The notes under the pieces are model-generated. The model was not told the origin of the DNA and ran no database searches. It worked only from the letters and a program-made list of their open reading frames with translations. A program made the translations under genes and the position numbers. This document shows positions 9,983 to 27,593 of a stretch of DNA of 36,706 bases, piece by piece. The number at the start of each line of letters is the position of its first letter. The stretch's first letter is position 1. This DNA is from Enorma burkinafasonensis (GTDB lineage Bacteria > Actinomycetota > Coriobacteriia > Coriobacteriales > Coriobacteriaceae): assembly GCF_902150035.1 (NCBI RefSeq), contig NZ_LR597514.1:1-36706 (forward strand). Direction: 5' to 3'.

Positions 9983-11182
9983 CTACGCGGTGACCTCCAT
10001 GGACTCGATGCACTTAATGAGCGAGTCGTCGTCCTTGCCGAAGCCATAGGCGACAAACGAGCTGAAGCGCGCAAGGAACGCCCGCCGCATGACCTCGAAA
10101 TCATCCGCCGAGACGAATCCCGCCTGCGCCTCGAACACGGCGGCGACGCGGAGCAGGTTCGCCGCGACCTGCGCCGGCGTGCCCGTGCCCAGGCCGTAGT
10201 GCCCCTTCGAGATGACGCACCAGTCCTCGTAGGCGATGCCGTCGTTGCGCATGCCGATGAAGTTCGCGAGCATGAGGTCGCACAGGCGCTCGAACTCCTC
10301 GCAGGTAGCGGGCCTGCCGGCTAGCTCGCTGGCGAGCTCGAGCGGCGCGCTTACCGGCGCGCCTACGGAGAACGCGTGCAGCGCGAGCCTACCCGCGAAG
10401 TCGCGCTTGGCGCGCTCCATCACGCCGTACTGGTCGTACTCACCCGGCTCGTCGCCCTTGCCCAGGCAGCCGGGTGCGAGCTCGATCTTGACCGTGTCGC
10501 GACGCCTCTCGCTCCACGGGAGGTGAATCTCGAAGGTCACCACGCCGGGCTCCGACTCCGCCAGGCGCGCCAGCAGCACGGGAACGGGGGCGCTGCTGAT
10601 GCACCACACGTCCTCGAGGCCGTCGCCTGCGGACTCAATCAGCAGATGCCGGTCGAGCTGGGCGCGGGCCTCGGGCAGGAGCCCCTCGGCGAGCTGCGCG
10701 AACCGCTCGAACTCATTCGCGTCCACATCGTGGCGCTCATAGCGCACGCGGAAGTCGTACTCTCCCTGCACGACCTGCTCCAGCGTGTGCTTGCGGTCGA
10801 ACACCACGAAGTCCGCCGTCCCCTCCGGCAGCTCGACGTCATAGGCGATCTTGGTGCCGTCCGGCGCGCAGATGCCGCCCGCGCGGCCCGCGACCCGGCG
10901 CTCGTAGTGGTAGCGCCGCGGCAGGATCACGCTGTCGTCCGGCGCGAGGGGCCTCTTCTCGATCGGGTCCCAGATCTGCCCGGACCCGTCGAGGACCATC
11001 TGCTGCGTGACGCGATCCTCCGCCTGCCCCACGCTGGATAAAGGAACCTTCTTGCCCTTGCGCGCCTTCTTCTTGGACCCGGCCGCCTCGGCCTCATAGG
11101 CGTCGAGCAGCTCCTGCCGCGCCCCGCCGAATGCCTGCGTCCGCTCCTCTACAAGCTCGATCGCGCGCTTGATCGTATCCAT
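9983..11182 (-). CDS. Unrecognised 399-residue protein, second gene of a pair beside BREX
   Basis: I do not recognise the family. The protein is soluble by appearance: no signal peptide or membrane segment. Residues 1-35 look helical, followed by a lysine-rich stretch (KKKARKGKK, about 37-45) that could contact nucleic acid or be a linker. The rest mixes strand-rich and helical parts, with a tryptophan-rich patch (EDWCVISKGHYGLGTGTP) near the C-terminal third. The ATG at 11182 follows GGGGAG at 7 bases. The partner gene upstream is 60 bases away on the same strand, and a strong terminator follows, so the two form an operon. The pair is divergent from the BREX operon; it may be a BREX-associated or separate defence or stress unit, but that is only positional inference. 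Confidence 0.85.
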   Translation of the reverse strand: MDTIKRAIELVEERTQAFGGARQELLDAYEAEAAGSKKKARKGKKVPLSSVGQAEDRVTQQMVLDGSGQIWDPIEKRPLAPDDSVILPRRYHYERRVAGRAGGICAPDGTKIAYDVELPEGTADFVVFDRKHTLEQVVQGEYDFRVRYERHDVDANEFERFAQLAEGLLPEARAQLDRHLLIESAGDGLEDVWCISSAPVPVLLARLAESEPGVVTFEIHLPWSERRRDTVKIELAPGCLGKGDEPGEYDQYGVMERAKRDFAGRLALHAFSVGAPVSAPLELASELAGRPATCEEFERLCDLMLANFIGMRNDGIAYEDWCVISKGHYGLGTGTPAQVAANLLRVAAVFEAQAGFVSADDFEVMRRAFLARFSSFVAYGFGKDDDSLIKCIESMEVTA

Positions 11183-11242: not shown

Positions 11243-12046
11243 CTAGTAGCTGCGCGGGACCTCGCGCAGCTCCATCCATTCCGTCGTGGCGACCGACTCC
11301 GCCAGGCCCATGAGGTCGGCTTTCTTGAGCTGGCGCTTGTCGAGGCCGGAGAGCGCACCCCCGAAGCCCGCGACCTTCACCCGGGGCTCGTGCGGCTCGG
11401 TCGGGTCGGGCTCCGCGAGCAGCTCGGCAGGAAGCTCCGCGCCGCCACCCGTATAGGGATCGGGTGAGCTCAGCAGGTCGTAGGTGTACAGATCACCGTA
11501 GTTGGCATCGGGCAGGTCGCCGTCGCACTGCGCGGCGAGCGCATCGAAGTACTCCGGGGCGTCCTCGTAGGAGCCCATCGGCCAGCCCGCCGCGATGGCG
11601 ACGCCGTAGGACCCCTCGGGCAGGCGCTGCAGGATGCTGGCGACGCGGTCGCGCTTCGGCGCGTAGTCGCCCTTTGCGGTGTCGCTGAACCAGAGCACGA
11701 GGTTGTCGCCGTACTGCTCGAGCTTGAAGTGCAGCTCGTGCGGAGGGAGAACGCGGTTGACCTTCTTCTTGGCGGCGACAAGCGCCTCGAGGTCCTTCTT
11801 GCGGATCGTCGCGGCGGTCTTCGCGGGGTAGAGGTCGGCGACGGCGTCCACGACCTGGGCCATATCATGCGGGTTCGCCGTTATCGCGCAGGTCACGTGC
11901 CAGCGGCCGAAGTCGATCTTGATGACCGTCGAGTCTCGCACCGTCATCGTCTCGCGGTACGACACCTCGTCGTACTCGAAGCGCCGGACCTCCCTCACGG
12001 TGTTGTACTCAAGCGAGCATTCCATGCTCATGTTCAGTCTAGGCAT
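11243..12046 (-). CDS. Unrecognised 267-residue protein, first gene of a pair beside BREX
   Basis: I do not recognise the family. The protein starts MPRLNMSMECSLEY and looks beta-rich in its first third (alternating hydrophobic residues in DSTVIKIDFGRWHVTCAITA). Then come a basic helical stretch (RKKDLEALVAAKKKVNR) and an acidic/proline-rich segment before the C terminus. No membrane segment. The start at 12046 is chosen because GGAAGGAG stands 6 bases before it; the frame stays open for 94 more codons upstream, but that stretch overlaps the palindromes of the intergenic regulatory region and looks non-coding. It heads a two-gene operon divergent from brxA and probably shares regulation with it. 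Confidence 0.83.
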   Translation of the reverse strand: MPRLNMSMECSLEYNTVREVRRFEYDEVSYRETMTVRDSTVIKIDFGRWHVTCAITANPHDMAQVVDAVADLYPAKTAATIRKKDLEALVAAKKKVNRVLPPHELHFKLEQYGDNLVLWFSDTAKGDYAPKRDRVASILQRLPEGSYGVAIAAGWPMGSYEDAPEYFDALAAQCDGDLPDANYGDLYTYDLLSSPDPYTGGGAELPAELLAEPDPTEPHEPRVKVAGFGGALSGLDKRQLKKADLMGLAESVATTEWMELREVPRSY

Positions 12047-12125
12047 GCGGTTCTCCTTCCGCCCTAACGCGCGCCGCAGCACGGCGCAGGCTCCGATCAG
12101 ACCATAGCAAGCGGATGGGACGGAT

Positions 12126-12137
12126 TGTTGAGCAACA
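12126..12137. promoter_or_regulatory. Palindromic site 1 (TGTTGAGCAACA)
   Basis: The arms TGTTG and CAACA flank AG. It is one of three GTTG-NN-CAAC palindromes in the 497-base gap between the divergent unknown gene and brxA, and an operator is likely. The core GTTGAGCAAC (12127-12136) is identical, in inverse orientation, to site 3. Confidence 0.5.
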
Positions 12138-12174
12138 CGGCGAGCGGCCCACCGGTTGACGGTAGCCGCTCGTA

Positions 12175-12190
12175 TTTGTTGCACAACAAA
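12175..12190. promoter_or_regulatory. Palindromic site 2 (TTTGTTGCACAACAAA)
   Basis: Seven-base arms TTTGTTG and CAACAAA flank CA. This is the longest palindrome in the divergent BREX promoter region. A copy with two changes lies at 31407-31422 before the kinase operon. Confidence 0.55.
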
Positions 12191-12295
12191 AAACGCCAGC
12201 TCTGTGCCAGTGTTGACGCCGATGATCGGTCGGAGAAAGGCGTCCATGGCATGTTCCACAACCTCGTCGAGCGCGAGCTGGGCCGCGCGATATCC

Positions 12296-12301
12296 TATAA
12301 T
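12296..12301 (+). promoter_or_regulatory. Candidate -10 of the BREX operon
   Basis: A perfect TATAAT stands 243 bases before the brxA start. No good -35 is visible at 16-18 bases, so an activator or another promoter remains possible. The following leader contains site 3 and the hairpin CCCTGCA/TGCAGGG (12375-12393), which has no T run. The rest of 12047-12543 shows no gene. Confidence 0.4.
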
Positions 12302-12365
12302 TCGAATCGAACCGAGCGGCTGCTGCATCCACGCCGCACGGAACCTGTGTCCCGGAGGAGACGAA

Positions 12366-12375: not shown

Positions 12376-12543
12376 CCTGCATGGAGTGCAGGGGGGATGG
12401 CATTTTCTACGCCGCTCCACCCAGGCAGTATCTCATAGCTCGCTAGCTGCCCGCATGTCCACGAGCGGACGCTCGTGCGCGAGCACCACGCACAAACCGA
12501 TATATCGAGCTGCGGTCGCCGCTCCCCTCAAGGGGGTGGCGTA

Positions 12544-13167
12544 ATGGGCGCGCCCAAGACCTATCGCGGGGGTATCACGCGCGAGCAATGGCTCGAGAAC
12601 GAGACCCGCACCGTCGCCCGCCTGATGGCGGACGAGGGGATGTGCGAGCCGGACAACCTCGTCGATGCCGTCACCCAGGGCAACCTCTTCCAGTACCCCA
12701 CCGAGCGCGAGCTCAAGTCCATCACCCGCGCCTGCGCGCGCCGACTCGAGGCGCTCTCCGAAGACCCCAGCCTGCGCGGGCGCCTCATCGAACTCATCGC
12801 GCACGGCACGCCCGACCAGCTCAAGCAGACGAACCTCTACGCCATGATGCGCGACAACCGCATCGTGTGGGAGTTCATGCTCTGCGTGGTCGCCACCAAG
12901 TTCGCGACCTTCGATGCCACCCTGCGAAGGCATGAAATCGCGGACTTTCTTGAAGGCCTGCGCGCGCAGGACGAGAAGGCCGCCCGCTGGAGCGACGCGA
13001 CCCTGGACAAGATCCGTCAGGTGCTCGCCTCCTCCCTCGAGCGCTGCGGTATGTACGACCGCCGCTCCGAACAGCTGAGCCCCCTGCTCATCGACTTCGA
13101 CCTGGAAATGGCCATACGCGCGAACGGTGACGAGCAGGTGCTCGCCGCGTTCGGGCGCACGTCCTAG
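12544..13167 (+). CDS. brxA: BREX protein BrxA (DUF1819)
   Basis: The 207-residue protein matches BrxA of type 1 BREX in size, position and style. It is a small helical, DNA-binding-type protein with a NusB-like fold by family knowledge, and starts MGAPKTYRGGITREQWLENE. BREX blocks phage DNA replication while methylating host DNA; the individual role of BrxA is not settled. The start at 12544 is preferred over 12475 because it gives the normal BrxA N terminus and follows GGGGGTGG. It is the first gene of the operon, 8 bases before brxB. A palindrome-rich leader suggests transcriptional control. Confidence 0.9.
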   Translation: MGAPKTYRGGITREQWLENETRTVARLMADEGMCEPDNLVDAVTQGNLFQYPTERELKSITRACARRLEALSEDPSLRGRLIELIAHGTPDQLKQTNLYAMMRDNRIVWEFMLCVVATKFATFDATLRRHEIADFLEGLRAQDEKAARWSDATLDKIRQVLASSLERCGMYDRRSEQLSPLLIDFDLEMAIRANGDEQVLAAFGRTS

Positions 13168-13175
13168 GAGAGCCC

Positions 13176-13778
13176 ATGACCGCATCCGAATCGCCTTCGC
13201 TCGCCATCAGCTTCGACCTCATCCGCTCGCGCCTGAGCGATCCCGGCTTCCTGAATAGCCAGGGCCTGGGCAACGAAGTGCCGTTCTACGTGTTCGCTTA
13301 CGACGCGGCGCGCGAGGACGAGGTCCGCGAGCGCACCGAGCGCCTGCTGAAGGATGCTGCCGAAGGGGCCATCCCCACGCGGATCACGCGGTTCGACCTG
13401 TGGGACATCTTCTCCCAAATTTGTGAGTACTACGAGATCTTCGACGATCTCGAGCGCATGGAGGCCCAGCAGGGCGACGAGGCGGTTCTGCGCCATATCC
13501 AGGAACTCGCCATGCCCGAGGACTACGTCACCAGAATGGCCGAGCAGTTCGAGCTCGTGCATGGCGCACCAGAGCCGGGCCGCGACGTCCTGCTCATCAC
13601 CGGCGTGGGCAAGGCCTACCCCTTCGTGCGCGCCCACGACATCCTCGAGAACGCCCAGCCGGTGTTCTCACAGATTCCCGTGGTGCTGTTCTATCCCGGC
13701 GTCTACGACGGCCAGTCGCTGCGCCTGTTCGGCTCCATCCAAGACGGCAACTACTACCGGGCGTTCAGCCTGCTCTAA
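13176..13778 (+). CDS. brxB: BREX protein BrxB (DUF1788)
   Basis: The 200-residue protein is the DUF1788/BrxB component of type 1 BREX. Its ending, FSQIPVVLFYPGVYDGQSLRLFGSIQDGNYYRAFSLL, with the LLITGVGKAYPFVRAHDILEN segment before it, is characteristic. It is required for defence in characterised systems, and its biochemical role is unclear. The ATG at 13176 follows AGGAG at short spacing. It sits between brxA and brxC, 33 bases before the chosen brxC start. Soluble, no motif for catalysis visible. Confidence 0.92.
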   Translation: MTASESPSLAISFDLIRSRLSDPGFLNSQGLGNEVPFYVFAYDAAREDEVRERTERLLKDAAEGAIPTRITRFDLWDIFSQICEYYEIFDDLERMEAQQGDEAVLRHIQELAMPEDYVTRMAEQFELVHGAPEPGRDVLLITGVGKAYPFVRAHDILENAQPVFSQIPVVLFYPGVYDGQSLRLFGSIQDGNYYRAFSLL

Positions 13779-13811
13779 GCCCATCCGCCCCGCGTGAAAG
13801 GACCCTCCCCC

Positions 13812-16800
13812 ATGCGCATCAAGGACATGTTCGAGCGCGACATCGACCGCAACATCAACGGCGTCATCAAAGTCGACCAGACAAGCGAAGAGATCATCGA
13901 GCAGGAGCTTTCCGAGTATGTGGTCACGCGCGAGCTGCGCGGGCACTATGCAACCTTTTACCACGCATACTGCCAGGCGCTCGACACTCCCACCGATAAG
14001 ATAGGCGTCTGGATCTCGGGCTCATTCGGCTCAGGTAAGTCGCACTTCCTGAAGATGCTCTCCTACCTGCTTGCCAACCGCGAAGTCGCAGGCAAACGCG
14101 CCCTCGACTACATCGCCCCGCGCTTCGAGGACGAGCTGCTCGCCGCCCAGGCGCGCCGCGCGGCGAGCGCCCCCGCCGAGACCATCCTCTTCAACATAGA
14201 CAGCAAGGGCACCACCAAGGACCAGTCCGCCATCATGCGCACGTTCGCGCGGGTGTTCTACGAGAACCAGGGCTTCTACGGCGCGAGCCTCAAGCTCGCC
14301 CGCCTGGAGCAGCTCATCGAGAGCCAGGGCAAGACGCAGGCGTTCCGCGCGTTGTACGAGGAGGCGTCCGGCCACCCGTGGACCGAGTGGCGCAAGACCT
14401 ACCGTTCCAAGTCCGACCCGGTAATCGCCGCGCTCGAGGCCTCGGGCGTCATGAGCCGCGAAGAGGGCGAACGCTGGTACGATTCGGGCGACGCGGACGA
14501 CCTCTCCATCGACTCGCTCACCGACGAGATCCGCGACTACGTCGAGATGCGCGCCGAGCAGAACGGCGGGCAGTTCCGCCTGCTCTTCATGGTCGACGAG
14601 ATCGGTCAGTACATCGGCACGGACACGAGCCTCATGCTGAACCTGCAGACCCTCGTCGAGGATCTGGGGACGAAATGCGCGGGCCGCGTGTGGGTGGTCG
14701 TCACAAGCCAGCAGGCTATAGACAAGACTTCAGCTTCCTCAGGCAACGATTTCTCGAAAATCCAGGGCCGCTTCAACACGCGCCTGTCGCTTTCCAGCTC
14801 AGACGCCGACGAGGTCATCAAGCGCCGCGTGCTCGCCAAGACCACCGACGCCGAGCAGCTCCTCGAGCTGCGCTACGCCGAGGACGCGGCCGTCCTCAAC
14901 AACCTCTTCTCCTTCAAGGACTCGGTAACCGACCTCACGGGCTATCGCGGTGCGGCGGACTTCTCGGCGACGTTCCCCTTCGCCAACTACCAGTTCAAGC
15001 TCATGCAAAACGTTATGGAAAAGCTTCGCACCCAGGGGGAGAGCAACAAGCACCTCTCGAGCGGCGAGCGCTCCATGCTCTCGGGCTTCCAGGAGGCCGC
15101 GCAGGCGGTTGAGGACCTGGACGAGCACGCGCTCGTGCCGTTCTGGCGCTTCTACGACGGCGTGCAGACCTTCCTGGAAAGCTACCACCGCCGCGTGATC
15201 GACCGCGCGGGCAAGGCAGCGCAGGACGGCCAGGGTCTCGTGGAGTATGACATCCGCGTGCTCAAGCTCCTGTTCATGGTGCGCTGGGTGGATCGCGAGA
15301 TCGCCACGAACATCGATAACATCGTGACCCTCATGACCGATGACGTGCGGGTGAACCGATTGGAGCTGCGTCAGCAGGTGCAGGATTCGCTCGACCGGCT
15401 TATCCACGAGAACTACGTGACACGCAACGGTGACCGCTACCAGTTCCTGACCGATGACGAACAGGAGATCGCCAACCAGATCAAGCGCACGCAGGTCGAT
15501 GCTGCAAAGATCACCGCCAAGGCTGCCGACATCATGTTCAAGAGCGTCTTCGACGAATCCAAACTCGCCCTGGGCAAGAACCAGTTCCCCGTGAATGAGT
15601 ACCTGGACGGCACGCATGTCAGCGGCGCCGGCGGCCTCACGCTCCGGGTGCTTGCCGGCATGGACGGCAGCGAACCGCCCAGCCACGAGGAGCTCATCCT
15701 CATGTCGAGCCGCAACGAGGCCGTGGTGGTGCTGAGTCCCGAGGTCGACTACTACAACCCGCTCATGGAGGCCGCGCGCATCGAGCAGTTCACCAACACG
15801 CTGGTCCACGCCAACCTACCCAAGAACCAGCAGGATATCATCCGCTCCAAGCAGCAGGAGCGCACCCGGCTCGATCGCCAGGCGCGCGACCTCATGGAGC
15901 AGGCGGTGCGCCAGGGCCAGTTCTACGTATACGGCAGTACCGTCACACCCGCGCAGACCGGCTCGGCGAAGAAGATCATCGAGGACTGCCTTGGCCGCCT
16001 GGTGGACGTGACCTACCCCAAGCTCTCCTACATCGACAGGAACTACGACAACGATGCCGATATCAAGCAGATCCTGAACGGCACCATGGCGCTCGAGGGC
16101 CAGCAGCCCAACGCCCGCGCCATCGAGGAACTCGAGCGCAAGCTTTCAATCGATGCCTCGCGCCACACCACGGTAAGCATGGAGGATATCCAGTCGCTCT
16201 ACCAGGCGGCCCCGTACGGATGGCGCGAGCAGGACATCGCCGCCGTGACGGCGGAGCTTCTGGCCTCCAAGCGCGCCAAGCTCGTCTATGCCGGACAGAC
16301 CGTGGATATCCATGACGCCCGACTCGTGGACTACCTGCGCAAGCGCAACATGGTGGGCAAAGTGCAGGTCGAGATGCGCGTCGCCGTGTCGGACGCCATG
16401 CGCTCGCGGGCGCGGCAGGTGACCGAGCGGCTTTGCGGCGTCTACAACCTGCCGACCGACGAGGACGGTCTCGCTGCGAGCGTCCGCGAGTGCCTTGAGG
16501 AGCGTCGCGATAACCTGCAGCACTTAGTGGACGTGGAGTACCGCCGCAACAGCAAGTACCCCGGCTACAGCGAGGTGGCCGACGCCATCCGCCGCATCAA
16601 GGACGTGCTCGCCGTGGGCAGCGACCCAGCGGATCTTTTGGCGGCCGTCTCCAGCAACCGTGACGACCTGCTGGACGATGCGGAGGACCTGAGGGAGATA
16701 GACCACTTCTTCTCGGCCCAGAAGCCCGCGTTCGACGAGGCAGCCGATCTCGTGCGCGACATGGAAAGCGAGCGGGAGTACCTGGCAAGCGATAGCGAGG

Positions 16801-17378
16801 CTATGGCGGCGTTGAAAAAGATCGAAGGCATCCTCACCGAGAAGCGCCCCTACCGCGACATCGCCCAGCTGTTCGACGCAAAGAAGACAATCAAAGACGC
16901 CCACGAGCAGCTCATGAAAGACAAGCGCGAGGACCTGCTCGCCACGCTCGACGATATCTTCAACGGCATCGAAGCACACGCGGCGGAACTTAACGTGAAG
17001 CTCGCAAGCATCGCCGAGACCCGCCTCTCGCGCCGCGGCGCCGTAAACGACGCGACCTCGCTCACCGCACTCGACGCCCTGAAGACGCGCCTCGGCAACG
17101 ACGAGCGCAAGCTCTACGACGAGATCGAGGTTGAACACGAGCGCATCTCGCGCCCGCGCCCAGTGAACACGAACGTGACCGTCACCGCCGAGCCGGCCAA
17201 GGGCACAGGCCCCAAGACGCCGCCGGCCCCCGCGCCCAAGGGCACAACCGTGAGCCGCACCCGCGTCTTCAAGCCGCGCCGCCTGCACAGCGAGGTGGAG
17301 ATCGAGGCTTACCTCGCCCAGGCCCGGGCCGATCTTCTGCGGGCGCTCACCGGGAACGACTACGTCAAGCTCGACTAA
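13812..17378 (+). CDS. brxC: BREX P-loop ATPase BrxC
   Basis: The 1,188-residue protein is the large ATP-binding BREX component, in the family with PglY (DUF6079-type). It starts MRIKDMFERDIDRNINGVIKVDQ, the hallmark opening. Walker A is GSFGSGKSHFLK (about 71-82); a Walker B-like stretch RLLFMVDEIGQYIG follows at about 256-269. A long helical C-terminal part precedes a Pro/Lys-rich linker (about 1120-1150) and a final conserved domain with FKPRRLHSEVEIEAYLAQARADLLRAL. The ATG at 13812 is preferred to the GTG at 13794 because AAAGGA then serves as its ribosome binding site. Length is normal. Confidence 0.94.
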   Translation: MRIKDMFERDIDRNINGVIKVDQTSEEIIEQELSEYVVTRELRGHYATFYHAYCQALDTPTDKIGVWISGSFGSGKSHFLKMLSYLLANREVAGKRALDYIAPRFEDELLAAQARRAASAPAETILFNIDSKGTTKDQSAIMRTFARVFYENQGFYGASLKLARLEQLIESQGKTQAFRALYEEASGHPWTEWRKTYRSKSDPVIAALEASGVMSREEGERWYDSGDADDLSIDSLTDEIRDYVEMRAEQNGGQFRLLFMVDEIGQYIGTDTSLMLNLQTLVEDLGTKCAGRVWVVVTSQQAIDKTSASSGNDFSKIQGRFNTRLSLSSSDADEVIKRRVLAKTTDAEQLLELRYAEDAAVLNNLFSFKDSVTDLTGYRGAADFSATFPFANYQFKLMQNVMEKLRTQGESNKHLSSGERSMLSGFQEAAQAVEDLDEHALVPFWRFYDGVQTFLESYHRRVIDRAGKAAQDGQGLVEYDIRVLKLLFMVRWVDREIATNIDNIVTLMTDDVRVNRLELRQQVQDSLDRLIHENYVTRNGDRYQFLTDDEQEIANQIKRTQVDAAKITAKAADIMFKSVFDESKLALGKNQFPVNEYLDGTHVSGAGGLTLRVLAGMDGSEPPSHEELILMSSRNEAVVVLSPEVDYYNPLMEAARIEQFTNTLVHANLPKNQQDIIRSKQQERTRLDRQARDLMEQAVRQGQFYVYGSTVTPAQTGSAKKIIEDCLGRLVDVTYPKLSYIDRNYDNDADIKQILNGTMALEGQQPNARAIEELERKLSIDASRHTTVSMEDIQSLYQAAPYGWREQDIAAVTAELLASKRAKLVYAGQTVDIHDARLVDYLRKRNMVGKVQVEMRVAVSDAMRSRARQVTERLCGVYNLPTDEDGLAASVRECLEERRDNLQHLVDVEYRRNSKYPGYSEVADAIRRIKDVLAVGSDPADLLAAVSSNRDDLLDDAEDLREIDHFFSAQKPAFDEAADLVRDMESEREYLASDSEAMAALKKIEGILTEKRPYRDIAQLFDAKKTIKDAHEQLMKDKREDLLATLDDIFNGIEAHAAELNVKLASIAETRLSRRGAVNDATSLTALDALKTRLGNDERKLYDEIEVEHERISRPRPVNTNVTVTAEPAKGTGPKTPPAPAPKGTTVSRTRVFKPRRLHSEVEIEAYLAQARADLLRALTGNDYVKLD

Positions 17379-19967: not shown

Positions 19968-20471
19968 ATGTGCCTATTTGCCTATGACTTTGTAGTTATA
20001 GATAGCCTATCAGCTCACAACGACACCCTTGCTGATGGTTGCGCTGCTGTGACCATCAAACTTCAAGCAAGGCTAAACCAAAGTGTTACTACAACAAAAG
20101 AAGATGTAACGCCCTATGAAGAACCGACGATGCCTACCCGCTCATTTTGCAGTGTCATATTCGCACAACTCGTGAACTCCAACGGAACTGAATGGGATTG
20201 GCAGGAACTAGAATCCGGAAAGATCGAACAATCCCTAATCTGGCGAGCTTCCGATCGGCCCCTTTCGTTGCACTTCATCTCACATGAATTACAAGAGATC
20301 GATGAGGGAGCTCGCCTAACAGTCGAATTAAAATCAAGCGATCGAAAGGCGGCTCGACAGATCTGCTCATTCGTCTACGAAAACCACTCATGGAGATCGA
20401 CGGAGGAAACAGCAGGCGTTCTAAAGAAACAGTTTGAGCAACCTCGACAGCGTAGAAGCCAACATCAATGA
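19968..20471 (+). CDS. Unrecognised 167-residue protein nested between the pglX halves
   Basis: I do not recognise the family. The gene begins 27 bases after the pglX N-terminal stop, with GAAAGG ahead of its ATG, so it should be cotranscribed. The first 50 residues or so look irregular. From the inner Met (MPTRSFCSVIFAQLVNSNGTEWDWQELESG) the protein looks like a small alpha/beta domain and ends in a basic glutamine-rich tail (KKQFEQPRQRRSQHQ). An inner start at that Met is possible. It has no membrane segment. It lies in the low-GC block, unlike the rest of BREX, so transfer is likely. Roles as a BREX accessory, an inhibitor or a passenger cannot be separated from sequence. Confidence 0.68.
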   Translation: MCLFAYDFVVIDSLSAHNDTLADGCAAVTIKLQARLNQSVTTTKEDVTPYEEPTMPTRSFCSVIFAQLVNSNGTEWDWQELESGKIEQSLIWRASDRPLSLHFISHELQEIDEGARLTVELKSSDRKAARQICSFVYENHSWRSTEETAGVLKKQFEQPRQRRSQHQ

Positions 20472-20962: not shown

Positions 20963-21634
20963 TTACAGCTGCTTCCTTCGGATCTTTTTGAGATAGTTCT
21001 TCGTAAAGCAGCGCTTATCGCCGAAGAACCTATGATCGGTCGGGCTATCCATGTGCCGGTCGTATCGCAACGCCGCCAACTCAATACCGCAAACATAATC
21101 CGCAACCCGAGACATGAAATAGTCTTTCGGCATGGCATTTCGATAGATAGCGGCGTTGCTCGACAAACACGTATGAACCGCGCGATGCACGGCGCGTTTT
21201 ACTGTTTGCTGCCCGTTGTCGTAGTAGATTTTGACGCAATCATAACCAAAAAAGAATTCAACCTGTTCCCTAATGAACGATACGAGCTCCCGCTCGATAC
21301 GTTCTGCCAACGCATATTCGCTAGAGAACTCTCGCTTTCTATATCGCAGAACCATGTAACGAAAAGGCGTCTTCTCGACGAAGACCTGAAAGCGCATGAA
21401 ATAACTCTTCCGCATACTCAAATCAATTTGATCGTATTGTTCATGACCGCGAACCACCGGCGTGAAGTGAAATGTTCGCTCAATCAACCCGGCATCGGAA
21501 AGTGCCTGACGATATCGACTGATACTCGTGGAGATGTCGACCGATTGGTCGTGAAAAACAAATCCGACCAGATAGTAGTCGGAGCAGGATCCAACATCAC
21601 CGGACTCATCAATGAAGATCGAAAGCTCCCTCAT
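20963..21634 (-). CDS. DUF3800 domain protein
   Basis: The 223-residue protein opens with MRELSIFIDESGDVG, the acidic D-E-S-G start of the DUF3800 family. It has the expected later marks YYDNGQQ (about 137-143), an A-D-Y-V-C segment (VADYVCGIEL) and a basic C terminus. The conserved acidic residues suggest a nuclease-like active site, but I know of no firm function; members are frequent on mobile DNA. It lies antisense to the BREX operon between the two halves of pglX, in the low-GC block, and is preceded by a structured leader. The ATG at 21634 follows a GGCGGGGGATGG stretch, which can pair with that leader. Confidence 0.86.
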   Translation of the reverse strand: MRELSIFIDESGDVGSCSDYYLVGFVFHDQSVDISTSISRYRQALSDAGLIERTFHFTPVVRGHEQYDQIDLSMRKSYFMRFQVFVEKTPFRYMVLRYRKREFSSEYALAERIERELVSFIREQVEFFFGYDCVKIYYDNGQQTVKRAVHRAVHTCLSSNAAIYRNAMPKDYFMSRVADYVCGIELAALRYDRHMDSPTDHRFFGDKRCFTKNYLKKIRRKQL

Positions 21635-21720
21635 GTGGCCATCCCCCGCCTAATAAAAATGCCGGGGGACACCCCCCGGCGAAGAGACAGCCCTCCTTGT
21701 GTGGAGCGCTGCTCTATTTA
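21635..21720 (-). ncRNA. Structured leader of the DUF3800 gene, candidate DUF3800-type RNA motif
   Basis: Read on the minus strand, CAGCGCTCC (21711-21703) pairs with GGAGGGCTG (21696-21688) with one G-G mismatch and a 6-base loop. Then GCCGGGGG (21680-21673) pairs with CCCCCGGC (21668-21661), followed at once by ATTTTTATT as in an intrinsic terminator. The ribosome binding stretch GGCGGGGGATGG (21650-21639) can pair with TCCCCCG of the second hairpin, an alternative to the terminator-like stem. Structured RNAs upstream of DUF3800 genes are a known class from comparative genomics. The similarity here is by eye and context. Confidence 0.6.
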
Positions 21721-21745: not shown

Positions 21746-21751
21746 ATCATA
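21746..21751 (-). promoter_or_regulatory. Candidate -10 of the DUF3800 leader
   Basis: TATGAT on the minus strand stands about 25 bases before the start of the leader hairpins. The first LexA-like box (21760-21773) would cover its spacer and -35. No clear -35 hexamer is seen. Confidence 0.4.
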
Positions 21752-21759
21752 CCAAAATA

Positions 21760-21773
21760 CGAACACATGTTCT
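21760..21773. promoter_or_regulatory. LexA-like box 1 (CGAACACATGTTCT)
   Basis: It matches the GAAC-N4-GTTC core of Gram-positive and actinobacterial SOS boxes, with CGAAC-R-N-R-Y-GTTY preserved. It is the exact inverse of box 2 over the 12-base core. It lies between the divergent DUF3800 gene and the pglX C-terminal half. Confidence 0.6.
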
Positions 21774-21785
21774 CCACCTTGAGAA

Positions 21786-21799
21786 CGAACATGTGTTCT
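21786..21799. promoter_or_regulatory. LexA-like box 2 (CGAACATGTGTTCT)
   Basis: This is the second GAAC-N4-GTTC box, centred 26 bases from the first and ending 22 bases before the start codon of the pglX C-terminal half. A bound repressor would sit on or just before that start region. Confidence 0.6.
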
Positions 21800-22806: not shown

Positions 22807-25419
22807 ATGAGGACCACGGACATACAGACCGAGCTGCGGCGGCGGTTCGATGAGACGGATGCCCCCACGGCGAGCGCCATCGTGATCTGGCACGACCCGG
22901 ATGGCGAGTTCGCCGACACGCTCGAAGGGCTCGAGCTCCCCGACATCGAGGTGATACGCGAGGAGCCCGGCCGTCGCTTCGCGCTCAAGCGCGAGCTCAA
23001 CGGCGACCTTACCGGCAGGCAGATTCTGCTCTACCGCCGCCGGCAGCGCAACCTCGTCGGCGACTGGCTCGCCGACGTCGAGGCACGTGCACAGGCGTTC
23101 TCGGCAGACTACCTTTCCGTGCAGATGCGCGAGCTCAACGCCGCCGACACGCCCGAGATGCGCAACGCGTTCTCGGCGCACAAGGCGTTCCTGGCCAAGA
23201 AGACCAACCTCAAGAAGCTTGCGCGCCTGATCGACGCCTACCAGGTGCCGCAGCAGCTCGAGCTCGCCATCATGGCCTGCGCCCTGGGTACGCAGGAGGC
23301 CACCGCCACGCAGGTGCTTATCGCCTACCTCGTGAAGGCCGCGGGCGAGGGTGCGCCCGCGGCGTTCGGTGCACTTGAGCAGGCGGGCGTGGCGGACGCC
23401 TTCACCCGCGCGCTCGCGAGCTGGACCGGTTTTGCCGGCGATGCGCGCGACCTCACGGCGCTCGCGCAGCACGTGCTGCTCTCGGCGCTCGCGCCCACGG
23501 TCCCCGCGGGAGCGCTCGATAGGCTCGGCAGCTGCCACTCCTCCGAGCACGCGCCCTTCTGCCACAGCCTCGTGAACGAATGGGGCCGCAGCGACCTCTC
23601 CGACGAGCTGCTCGAGCTCTGCTGCACCGTCGAAGAGGCGACGGATCTCGAGGCGGTGCTCGGTCGCTTCGACGCCCCGGAGCTCTCCCGCGCCGAGGTG
23701 TTCCCCTGCATCGACGCCCTCATCCTCCGCAGGCTCTTCCGCACCGTGGCAGCCGGCCCCGACGGGGCCGATGCCGCGATGGAGCTCGCGGCAGGGCGCC
23801 GCGGCAGCCTGTGGAGCGGGCGCTTCTCATGCTACTACGAAGGCATCATCTGCGCCGCCCGCATGCAGATCTTCTGTCGCGAGCGCGGCCCCGAGCTCGG
23901 CGCCATGACCGCGGAGGTGCTCTGGAAGCGCTACACCGCAGAGTACTGGCACATGGACCGCTGGTACCGCGAGCTCCATGTCGCCTTCGCCCAGGCGGTC
24001 CGCGCCGGCGAGTACGGGCTCGACGAGGACTTCCGCTCCTGCTGCACCGCGCTGGAAGACCTCTACAAGGGCTGGTTCCTGAAGGAGCTCTCGCGTCGCT
24101 GGGCGTCCGCTGTCGAGGGCGACCTCGCGAGGACCGGCTACGTGAACGGCATCCCGCGCCAGCTCGATTTCTACCTCGATGAGGTCGAGCCGGTCCTGCG
24201 CACCAAGAAGCGCGCCTGGGTCGTGGTGTCTGACGCGCTCCGCTTCGAGGTCGCGGCCGAGCTCGCCGAGCATCTGGAGCGCGAGACCAAGGGCAACTGC
24301 GACCTGGGCGCCGCGCAGGCGGTCTTTCCCTCGATCACCAAATGCGGCATGAGCGCGCTCTTGCCCAGCACGAGCTTCGCCTACGCCGCCACGAGCTCGG
24401 CCGAGCGCCGCCGCCTCTCCGTACTTACGGACGGCTCCGAGGCGCTCTCGACCGAGGGCCGCCAGGCGCAGATCAGAAAGCACGCGAGCGCATCCGTCGC
24501 CGTGCGCTACGACGACTTCGTGAACGAGATGGGCCGCGCCGAGCGGCGAGCGCTCGTGGGCGACGCCGAGGTGGTCTACCTCTACCACAACACCATCGAC
24601 GCCCTGGGCGACAAGGAGCCCACCGAGCGGAAGGTGTTCACCGCCTGCGGCGAGGCGATCGAGGAGCTCGCCGCCTGCATCCAGCTCATCGTGCGCGAGT
24701 TCGGTGCCTCGAGCGTGATCGCGACCGCCGACCACGGCTTCCTCTACACCGACCGCCCGCTCGCGGAATCCGAGCACGCCTCGGTCGCGGATATCGCCGG
24801 CACGGTCGTGGAGGCCGGGCGCCGCTACGCCGTGACGGAAGGAGACGCCGACGGCGGACCGCTCGTGCGCGTCGCGCTGCCCTGCGCGGCAGACGCGGAA
24901 CCCCTCACGGGCTTCGCCCCGCGCGAGTGCGTGCGCCTGCGCATGGCGGGCGGCGGCGAGAACTACGTCCACGGCGGCATCTCGCTCCAGGAGCTCTGCG
25001 TGCCGGTGCTCCGCTTCGCCAACAAGCGCGCCGGCAGCAAGGGCTACATGGAGAGCGCGCCGGCGGGCATCTCGCTCGTCACGCGCATCGACACCGTGAC
25101 CAACTCCCTCTTTACCCTTGAGTTCCTGCAGGACGAGCCCGTGGGCGGCAAGGTGCTCCCCGCCGAGTACGAGGTCTTCGTGGGCGACGCCGCGCACGAG
25201 CCCGTGACCGACATCGCCCGCGTGGTCGCCGACCGCATCGAGGCGGATGCCACGGCGCGCAAGCTCCACGTGTCGCTCTCGCTCAAGCCCGGCGCCGGGA
25301 CCTCCGAGCGCGAGCTCTACCGCCTCTACGCCCGCAACACGAAGACCCGTGAGGTGCGCGCCCTCTGCGACCTGCGCATCCACGTCGCCTTTGCCCCATC
25401 GATCGATTTTGGATGGTAA
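22807..25419 (+). CDS. pglZ: BREX protein PglZ, alkaline-phosphatase superfamily
   Basis: The 870-residue protein is the type 1 PglZ. Its central PglZ domain has the metal-binding aspartate in WVVVSDALRFEVAAEL (about 470-485), the segment VFPSITKCGMSALLPS with the Thr/Ser region, and ATADHGFLYTDR (about 638-649) with the Asp-His metal ligands of the alkaline-phosphatase fold. The N-terminal third is helical. The C-terminal beta domain ends in CDLRIHVAFAPSIDFGW. Characterised PglZ proteins are essential for BREX and have metal-dependent nuclease or phosphodiesterase activity in some systems. It starts 10 bases after the pglX C-terminal gene and ends next to brxL. Confidence 0.94.
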   Translation: MRTTDIQTELRRRFDETDAPTASAIVIWHDPDGEFADTLEGLELPDIEVIREEPGRRFALKRELNGDLTGRQILLYRRRQRNLVGDWLADVEARAQAFSADYLSVQMRELNAADTPEMRNAFSAHKAFLAKKTNLKKLARLIDAYQVPQQLELAIMACALGTQEATATQVLIAYLVKAAGEGAPAAFGALEQAGVADAFTRALASWTGFAGDARDLTALAQHVLLSALAPTVPAGALDRLGSCHSSEHAPFCHSLVNEWGRSDLSDELLELCCTVEEATDLEAVLGRFDAPELSRAEVFPCIDALILRRLFRTVAAGPDGADAAMELAAGRRGSLWSGRFSCYYEGIICAARMQIFCRERGPELGAMTAEVLWKRYTAEYWHMDRWYRELHVAFAQAVRAGEYGLDEDFRSCCTALEDLYKGWFLKELSRRWASAVEGDLARTGYVNGIPRQLDFYLDEVEPVLRTKKRAWVVVSDALRFEVAAELAEHLERETKGNCDLGAAQAVFPSITKCGMSALLPSTSFAYAATSSAERRRLSVLTDGSEALSTEGRQAQIRKHASASVAVRYDDFVNEMGRAERRALVGDAEVVYLYHNTIDALGDKEPTERKVFTACGEAIEELAACIQLIVREFGASSVIATADHGFLYTDRPLAESEHASVADIAGTVVEAGRRYAVTEGDADGGPLVRVALPCAADAEPLTGFAPRECVRLRMAGGGENYVHGGISLQELCVPVLRFANKRAGSKGYMESAPAGISLVTRIDTVTNSLFTLEFLQDEPVGGKVLPAEYEVFVGDAAHEPVTDIARVVADRIEADATARKLHVSLSLKPGAGTSERELYRLYARNTKTREVRALCDLRIHVAFAPSIDFGW

Positions 25420-25421
25420 CC

Positions 25422-27593
25422 ATGAGCGAGAACACCGCAACCCAGGTGCCCGCCTACGAGCAGGACGCCCTCGACCGCAAGATCATCGACAGCTTCCCCG
25501 GCCTCATCGTGCGCAAGGACCTCACCGCCCTCATGAAACGCGGTGCCGGGATCCCCACCTTCGTGCTGGAGTACCTGCTCGGCATGTACTGCGCCACCGA
25601 CGACCCCGAGGCACTCGATCAGGGCCTCGCGCGCATCCGCAAAATCCTCGCCGAGAACTACGTGCGCACCGAGGAGAGCGAGGTCATCAAGTCGCGCATC
25701 CGCGAACTGGGCCAGTACACCATCATCGACAAGGTGAGCGCCTACCTCGACGAGCGGCGCGACATCTACGTCGCGAGCCTCGCGAACCTCGCCATCGAGC
25801 CCTTCATCATGCCCGACGAATACGTGCGCTCCTACACCAAGATGCTCACCGGCGGCATCTGGTGCATCGCGCGCATCCAGTACCTGCGCCCCGAGGACAT
25901 GGCCGACGACCCGCTCTCCGACATCTTCGCCGACGACCCGGCCGAGAAGACCAAGATCAAGCCCGCCAACACCTCGAAGGGCGCCAAGGGGCCCGAGAAC
26001 TCGCCCTTCCACATCGTGGACCTCACGCCCATCCAGATGCCCAACCTCGACGTGGACGAGATCATCTCCAAGCGCGCCGCCTTCACCACCGACGAGTGGA
26101 TCGCGCTCCTTCTGCGCTCCGCCGGCTACGAGCCGAACGCCCTCTCGCCGCGGGAGCGCCTGCACTTCCTCACCCGCATGGTGCCGCTCATCGAGCTCAA
26201 CTACAACCTCTGCGAGCTGGGTCCGCGCGGCACGGGCAAGTCGCATATCTACACCGAGGTCTCGCCCTACTCCTACCTGCTCTCGGGCGGGCAGGCCACC
26301 ACGGCCATGCTCTTCGCCAACAACACCGCGCGTACCGGCGGCATCGGGTTGGTGGGCCATTGGGACTGCGTCGCGTTCGACGAGGTCGCGGGCATGCACT
26401 ACAAGGACGCCAACGCCATCCAGATCATGAAGGGGTACATGGCCAACGGCACCTTCGGCCGCGGGCGCGAGCTCTTCAACGCCGAGGCCTCGATGGTCTT
26501 CGAGGGCAACATCAACGACTCGGTGGCGAATATCTTGAAGACCACGCACCTCTTCGAGCCGTTCCCGCCGGAGTTCAACAACGACAGCGCGTTCTTCGAC
26601 CGCATCCACTGCTACCTGCCCGGCTGGGAGGTGCCCAAGATGCGCTCCGACCTCATCACCGGGCGCTACAGCCTCATCACCGACTGCCTGTCGGAGTTCT
26701 GCCACGAGATGCGCCGCCGCGACTTCACGCACTACCTCGACCAGTACTTCCGCTTGAACGGCGACTTCAACCGCCGCGACGAGATCGGCGTGCGCAAGAC
26801 CTTCTCGGGTCTCGCGAAGCTCGTCTTCCCCGACGGCAACATGGGCAAGGAGGACGTGCGCATGCTCCTCGAGTACGCCATCGAGGGGCGCCGCCGCGTG
26901 AAGGAGCAGCTCAAGCTCATGGCCGGCATCGAGTTCATGGACGTCAACCTGGGCTATGTCGACGCGGAGAACCCGACCGAGTCCGTCATCGTGCGCGTGC
27001 CCGAGCAGGCCGACGACACCCTGATCCCCGCCGCACCGCTCCTGCCGGGACACGTGTTCGCGATCGGCATGTCGCAGGGCGACGAGATCGCCGTCTACAA
27101 GCTCGAGAACAAGGCCATCACCGGCGAGATGAAGTTCCGCACCGAGGGCATCGGCTACAACAAGCCGGTGAGCGACTCGCTCGACGCGGCGTTCCAACAG
27201 TTCAAGCAGAACGCGCCGCGCCTCGCCGCCGGCATGCACGTCTCCGGCAAGGACTACCTGCTCTACTACAACGACATCCAGAGCAAGGGGCTCTCGGCCG
27301 AGCTCTCGCTCGCGGAGTTCATCGGGCTGTGCTCGGCCGCGGCGAACCGGCCCGTCATCGCCGGCCTCGCGATCCCGGGCATCCTGCGCATCTCGGGCAC
27401 GCTCGAGCCCGTCGCCAACCTGGAGGACGTGATGCGCGTGGCCAAGAACGCCGGCGCCAAGCGCATCTTGCTGCCCATGAGCGCGATCGCGGACCTGCAG
27501 GGCATCGCGTCGGAGCTCATCGGGTCGGTGAGCCCGGAGTTCTACCCCGACGGCGACATCGTTGCCGCCGCCAAGAAGGCGCTCGGGGTGTAG
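25422..27593 (+). CDS. brxL: BREX AAA+ Lon-like protein BrxL
   Basis: The 723-residue protein is BrxL, the last core type 1 BREX gene. It has an AAA+ module with Walker A GPRGTGKSH (about 266-275), the acidic Walker B region in CVAFDEVAGM, and a C-terminal Lon-protease-like domain ending LPMSAIADLQGIASELIGSVSPEFY and KALGV. In Lon the corresponding segment has the catalytic Lys in G-L-K-E; here it reads N-L-E-D, so proteolysis looks unlikely (inference). BrxL assembles into DNA-binding rings in known cases. The ATG at 25422 is chosen because GGATGG then precedes it at useful spacing; an ATG at 25413 would overlap pglZ by 7 bases. It is convergent with the FHA gene, 41 bases away, with no clear terminator between them. 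Confidence 0.93.
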   Translation: MSENTATQVPAYEQDALDRKIIDSFPGLIVRKDLTALMKRGAGIPTFVLEYLLGMYCATDDPEALDQGLARIRKILAENYVRTEESEVIKSRIRELGQYTIIDKVSAYLDERRDIYVASLANLAIEPFIMPDEYVRSYTKMLTGGIWCIARIQYLRPEDMADDPLSDIFADDPAEKTKIKPANTSKGAKGPENSPFHIVDLTPIQMPNLDVDEIISKRAAFTTDEWIALLLRSAGYEPNALSPRERLHFLTRMVPLIELNYNLCELGPRGTGKSHIYTEVSPYSYLLSGGQATTAMLFANNTARTGGIGLVGHWDCVAFDEVAGMHYKDANAIQIMKGYMANGTFGRGRELFNAEASMVFEGNINDSVANILKTTHLFEPFPPEFNNDSAFFDRIHCYLPGWEVPKMRSDLITGRYSLITDCLSEFCHEMRRRDFTHYLDQYFRLNGDFNRRDEIGVRKTFSGLAKLVFPDGNMGKEDVRMLLEYAIEGRRRVKEQLKLMAGIEFMDVNLGYVDAENPTESVIVRVPEQADDTLIPAAPLLPGHVFAIGMSQGDEIAVYKLENKAITGEMKFRTEGIGYNKPVSDSLDAAFQQFKQNAPRLAAGMHVSGKDYLLYYNDIQSKGLSAELSLAEFIGLCSAAANRPVIAGLAIPGILRISGTLEPVANLEDVMRVAKNAGAKRILLPMSAIADLQGIASELIGSVSPEFYPDGDIVAAAKKALGV

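Follow-up and report, generated by a model that had tools for sequence, protein, structure and literature searches.

The two palindromic boxes found within the anti-phage BREX locus of Enorma burkinafasonensis are probably LexA operators of a minus-strand promoter leading into a DUF3800 gene. This gene would be an accessory of the BREX system, derepressed upon DNA damage and acting as a second line. The window, i.e. the whole stretch of DNA analysed, has a length of 36,706 nucleotides. The features discussed below are listed in Table 1.

Table 1. Features of the BREX locus and of the DUF3800 promoter region, in window coordinates.
Feature	Position	Strand	Basis or remark
brxA, brxB, brxC	12475..17378	+	family profile matches
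pglX N-part (pglX-N), methyltransferase and specificity region, 848 aa	17394..19940	+	profile matches
DUF3800 gene, 223 aa, RNase H-like fold	20963..21634	-	likely target of the LexA-type boxes
Intrinsic terminator in the DUF3800 leader, GCCGGGGGGTGTCCCCCGGC-ATTTTTATTA	21661..21680	-	fold and terminator scan
Hairpin 1 of the DUF3800 leader RNA	21687..21712	-	fold; matching stems in 52 distinct leaders
Putative promoter P2, TTGAAT-N18-TATAAA	21717..21746	-	similar pairs before many boxless DUF3800 genes
Putative P1 -10, TATGAT preceded by TG	21746..21751	-	conservation; box 1 over the -35 region
LexA-type box 1, CGAACACATGTTCT	21760..21773	.	proximal to DUF3800; host box type, kept in relatives
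LexA-type box 2, CGAACATGTGTTCT	21786..21799	.	26 bp from box 1
pglX C-part (pglX-C), 324 aa	21822..22796	+	own gene in the majority of the family's BREX loci
pglZ	22807..25419	+	profile matches
brxL	25425..27593	+	

As described by the first-pass annotation, both 14-mers, whose coordinates were checked, fit the GAAC-N4-GTTC core, and each 12-base core (GAACACATGTTC, GAACATGTGTTC) is the exact reverse complement of the other. Perfect matches to CGAACANNTGTTCT are restricted, in the window, to these two boxes. When up to two mismatches are allowed, six matches are counted, including two that correspond to the same sites on the opposite strand, against 1.27 expected from shuffling; none of 100 shuffles reached six. 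Inside the window, no box of the LexA type is found at the core BREX genes. On the scale of the 2.23-Mb genome, the loose core GAAC-N4-GTTC occurs at 28 sites versus 37 for the reversed control and is therefore not enriched. The core being common genome-wide, a lone occurrence of it is weak evidence.

The identity of the boxes was examined using the SOS genes of the host, a comparison already proposed from the first reading of the DNA. The genome contains one recA gene, preceded by CGAACAGCTGTTCG, and one lexA gene, preceded by GGAACAACTGTTCG and CGAACATCCGTTCT, all of the same type as the window boxes. Furthermore, AGAACAGATGTTCG precedes a ruvC-like gene, named from its own sequence (MVILGIDPGLANTGWG). 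The window boxes fit the host type as well as the lexA, recA and ruvC boxes do, and a host-type SOS box thus stands in the promoter region of DUF3800. They also agree with the consensus measured for Streptomyces LexA, tCGAAC-N4-GNNCGa (PMC9380542). Considering that the lexA and recA genes of the host carry the same box, both sites may be regarded as genuine LexA-type operators, and LexA binding is strongly supported. The match to the host SOS boxes, together with their conserved, fixed placement upstream of related genes in other genera, makes the evidence for the boxes strong. The lack of genome-wide enrichment of the core would be compatible with operators of another regulator recognizing a similar palindrome. 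Such a regulator is highly improbable in view of the same box type upstream of the lexA, recA and ruvC genes of the host, of the agreement with the experimentally defined Streptomyces motif (PMC9380542), and of a placement inside promoters that is typical of LexA. A role of the boxes as recombination or inversion sites was also considered; it was set aside given their LexA type and their fixed spacing in relatives.

Conservation of the box was followed in 90 DUF3800 genes, 79 loci coming from a scan of named genomes and 11 from the family of the host. A box is located about 140 bp upstream of 13 of the 15 BREX-linked genes versus 2 of the 75 unlinked ones (Fisher's test, p ~6e-12, kinship being ignored). 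The 13 include L103, which has a weak box with two mismatches; counting this locus as unboxed gives p = 1.4e-10, kinship again being ignored. Two BREX-linked genes, L094 and L095, have no box. With at most one mismatch and 200 bp of upstream DNA, a site is present before 12 of the 15 BREX-linked genes, where 1.0 would be expected from shuffled sequence; the corresponding numbers for the unlinked genes are 5 of 75 and 4.9, which is chance level. Collinsella massiliensis and G021 carry boxes, with no BREX locus within the DNA examined around their genes. Two boxes with the 26-bp spacing occur at seven DUF3800 loci of the host's family and in one Olsenella MAG. The boxed BREX-linked genes are spread over more than one group of the protein tree, where well-supported branches force at least five changes. 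When kinship is respected in a pair test, only three pairs are supported; their direction is nearly always the expected one, but they are too few for significance.

C. stercoris (L126) and C. intestinalis (L097) have an almost identical promoter and box region but distant DUF3800 proteins, which suggests that the coding part was swapped beneath a kept promoter. Near-identical DUF3800 copies occur in different genera. Phage records yielded no DUF3800 relative. Plasmid records yielded a single one, on an 899-kb Collinsella aerofaciens record, at coordinates that coincide with those of the G015 copy.

The first-pass annotation had envisaged LexA control of a half of PglX, of DUF3800, or of both. 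In one model, LexA would act on pglX-C, hence on pglZ and brxL, or in both directions, so that the SOS response would tune BREX methylation and restriction. In a variant of it, LexA might be a roadblock to transcription of the BREX operon from pglX-N to pglX-C. Such models find some basis in the position of box 2, only 22 bp before the pglX-C start, and in the divergent DUF3800 / boxes / pglX-C arrangement of five BREX loci (the window, G023, G046, G056 and G059). They are nevertheless unlikely. Among 17 upstream regions of pglX-C, boxes are present only where DUF3800 directly adjoins. Three genomes of the lineage (G009, G015 and G039) have DUF3800, with a box upstream, some 2 kb past brxL, and the corresponding pglX-C genes (L083, L086 and L081) have no box upstream. 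In C. massiliensis (G002, L030, L091), whose DUF3800 is 82% identical, both boxes are kept with the same spacing; pglX-C was not found in this genome, and DNA similarity to the window ends just past box 2. In G058 (a genome 81% complete), DUF3800 was not found, and a promoter remnant is recognisable upstream of pglX-C with both boxes eroded, as if they had decayed upon loss of DUF3800. In G050, DUF3800 is on the minus side of the boxes as usual, but the gene on the plus side is not pglX-C. This gene (L063 7907-11524, between the boxes and pglX-C) encodes 1205 aa without a match in Pfam or NCBIfam. Moreover, no plus-strand promoter toward pglX-C is conserved, and any -10 lying in the interval from box 2 to the start of pglX-C would give a transcript lacking the ribosome-binding site. 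The boxes most likely follow the minus-strand DUF3800 gene and not pglX-C. The DUF3800 part of the initial proposal is thereby retained and the PglX part is not. A link of the SOS response to BREX self-marking or defence had also been proposed. A tie between the BREX locus and the SOS response is indeed seen in several genera. However, because the boxes track DUF3800 even in the absence of pglX-C, the damage-linked gene would be an accessory gene and self-marking would not be concerned.

The locus itself contains brxA, brxB, brxC, pglX, pglZ and brxL, the set of BREX type 1, with pglX encoded by two adjacent ORFs instead of one gene. The N-part aligns to positions 1-869 or 1-899 of the PglX profiles and the C-part resumes at 877 or 906. 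Together the two parts cover the profiles, so that no half of PglX is missing, contrary to what had been supposed. The C-part was matched in 20 of 65 genomes of the family, mostly as an independent gene having a start of its own, and a full-length pglX frame is found only in G018 and G048. The split is a variant layout, natural in this BREX-1 lineage, and gives no ground against the assignment to BREX-1. An insertion breaking pglX was considered and rejected, because a start proper to the C-part exists in most of the family's BREX loci, whether DUF3800 is present or not. In the window, the minus-strand DUF3800 gene sits between the two pglX parts. Across the family, this gap holds varying genes (loci L071-L086). 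The small ORFs between pglX-N and DUF3800 also differ between genomes (window 19968-20471; L060 7794-8815; L062 10099-11043) and have no family match. Upstream of brxA and pointing away from it, two minus-strand ORFs of the window (9983-11182 and 11243-12328) match no Pfam or PADLOC family.

The core of box 1 is located 138 bp upstream of the DUF3800 start codon, and about 125 bases lie between this codon and the box. In the loci with a single box (G009, G015, G039 and G021), reading by eye places this box in the spacer of TTGACG-N17-TATAAT (TATACT in G015). This is a standard sigma-70 promoter, with the box at the usual site of LexA blockage. Loci with two boxes have a -10-like hexamer (TATGAT, TAGAAT or TACAAT) 8 nt from box 1, so that box 1 would cover the -35 region. 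A consensus promoter scan of the window reported neither P1 nor P2; both are therefore deduced from conservation. P1 appears weak by consensus, and P2, which has no box, could supply basal DUF3800 expression.

Downstream of these putative promoters, the leader comprises a hairpin and a GC-rich intrinsic terminator, separated in most relatives by a CCAAG-type linker, and is followed by the start codon. The 52 distinct leaders recovered fold alike, and their stem sequences change yet still match, as judged from single-sequence folds and not from a formal covariation test. Comparison with Rfam gave no family match. A leader of about 60 nt is common to DUF3800 genes of Coriobacteriia and Bifidobacterium (window 21661-21712, minus strand; L031-L049, L091-L169). 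The leader possibly represents a new class of DUF3800-associated RNA.

The protein matches Pfam PF12686 marginally (E 2e-4, 22.5 bits for a gathering score of 21). An AlphaFold2 model built with 16 relatives has a mean pLDDT of 89.5, and its best fold matches are RNase HII and H2. Scores are modest, with a Foldseek E of 6e-4 to Tk-RNase HII, which places the model in the RNase H-like superfamily, and a VIA Z of 8.3 to RNase HII over 165 residues at 4.0 A. From this RNase H-like fold, the protein is predicted to be nuclease-like; as to a possible metal-dependent nuclease activity, the acidic residues D9, E10, D132, D139, D179 and E185 are invariant. The model agrees with published work attributing to DUF3800 an RNase H fold and an association with non-coding RNAs (PMC10910872; PMC12669027). 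The DUF3800 profile matched no sequence among solved structures, and this gene has no family in PADLOC or NCBIfam.

Taken together, these data lead us to propose the following mechanism. In the undamaged cell, LexA dimers bound to the boxes would mask the -35 region of P1, so that DUF3800 stays at a low level. Upon DNA damage, caused for instance by phage replication or by cut phage or host DNA, RecA filaments would trigger self-cleavage of LexA. Once LexA is lost, DUF3800 and its leader RNA would be produced, adding a second-line response to BREX. None of the core BREX genes, the C-part of pglX among them, would be a LexA target. LexA binding and induction are inferred from the boxes, and the BREX neighbourhood and the fold of the protein suggest a possible antiviral backup role for DUF3800. 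More tentatively, it may be imagined that BREX loci of Coriobacteriia contain a LexA-controlled slot with a constant promoter, into which different DUF3800 nuclease-like genes are exchanged, each bringing an RNA leader of its own. Such an SOS-triggered second defence line would act if BREX fails and DNA damage caused by phage is sensed, possibly by cell shutdown.

Another view, which appears rather unlikely, is that DUF3800 and its RNA leader form a selfish or toxin-antitoxin-like module that lies in BREX by chance, the SOS response serving the module and not defence. The leader RNA would be the antitoxin, and the terminator would set the ratio of RNA to protein. Most unlinked relatives inspected are indeed lone genes in varied, often housekeeping, surroundings. 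The near-identical copies in different genera, as well as the hairpin and terminator preceding the gene in all the distinct leaders recovered, would also fit with such a module. However, the LexA boxes are found almost only on BREX-linked copies, which suggests a role tied to the defence locus, and inspection of the leader by eye did not reveal tandem RNA repeats of the ToxIN type. In type III toxin-antitoxin systems such as ToxIN, a promoter, a structured RNA, a terminator and a nuclease gene follow one another, and the RNA antitoxin, usually a tandem repeat, neutralises the protein. The window shares this order, with a nuclease-like gene, but its leader has a single hairpin and its protein a different fold.

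The nearest parallel in logic to the proposed control of DUF3800 is SymE/SymR of Escherichia coli. There, a LexA-repressed gene is accompanied by a small RNA in cis, and its family shows an association with restriction-modification loci (PMC1891008). A damage-induced rise is expected of both. SymE has an AbrB fold and an antisense RNA, whereas the window gene encodes an RNase H-like DUF3800 protein, has a sense leader with a terminator and belongs to a BREX locus. DUF3800 genes with structured upstream RNAs have been described (Rfam DUF3800-I and DUF3800-IX; PMC11701678), as has CRISPR-associated DUF3800 (PMC10910872, PMC12669027). The window gene resembles these by its RNase H fold, its structured upstream RNA and its association with a defence locus; it differs by a leader without Rfam match, by the association with BREX and by the LexA boxes.

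In the papers found, the control of BREX involves WYL-type regulators (PMC9122589, PMC9122601). The BREX type 1 locus controlled by BrxR (PMC9122589) has the same core genes and is also under transcriptional control, but in place of a WYL protein the window offers, as far as its own gene families go, LexA boxes upstream of an accessory gene, as well as a two-gene pglX. No link of LexA or the SOS response to BREX was found in the open-licence literature, and neither LexA nor SOS appears in the main text of a recent survey of BREX diversity (PMC12839542). The finding of LexA-type boxes at a BREX accessory gene provides a testable trigger for the DUF3800 protein, a member of a family without established function. 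It also suggests that, in several genera of gut bacteria, the cell's damage alarm is connected to a backup gene located in the BREX locus.
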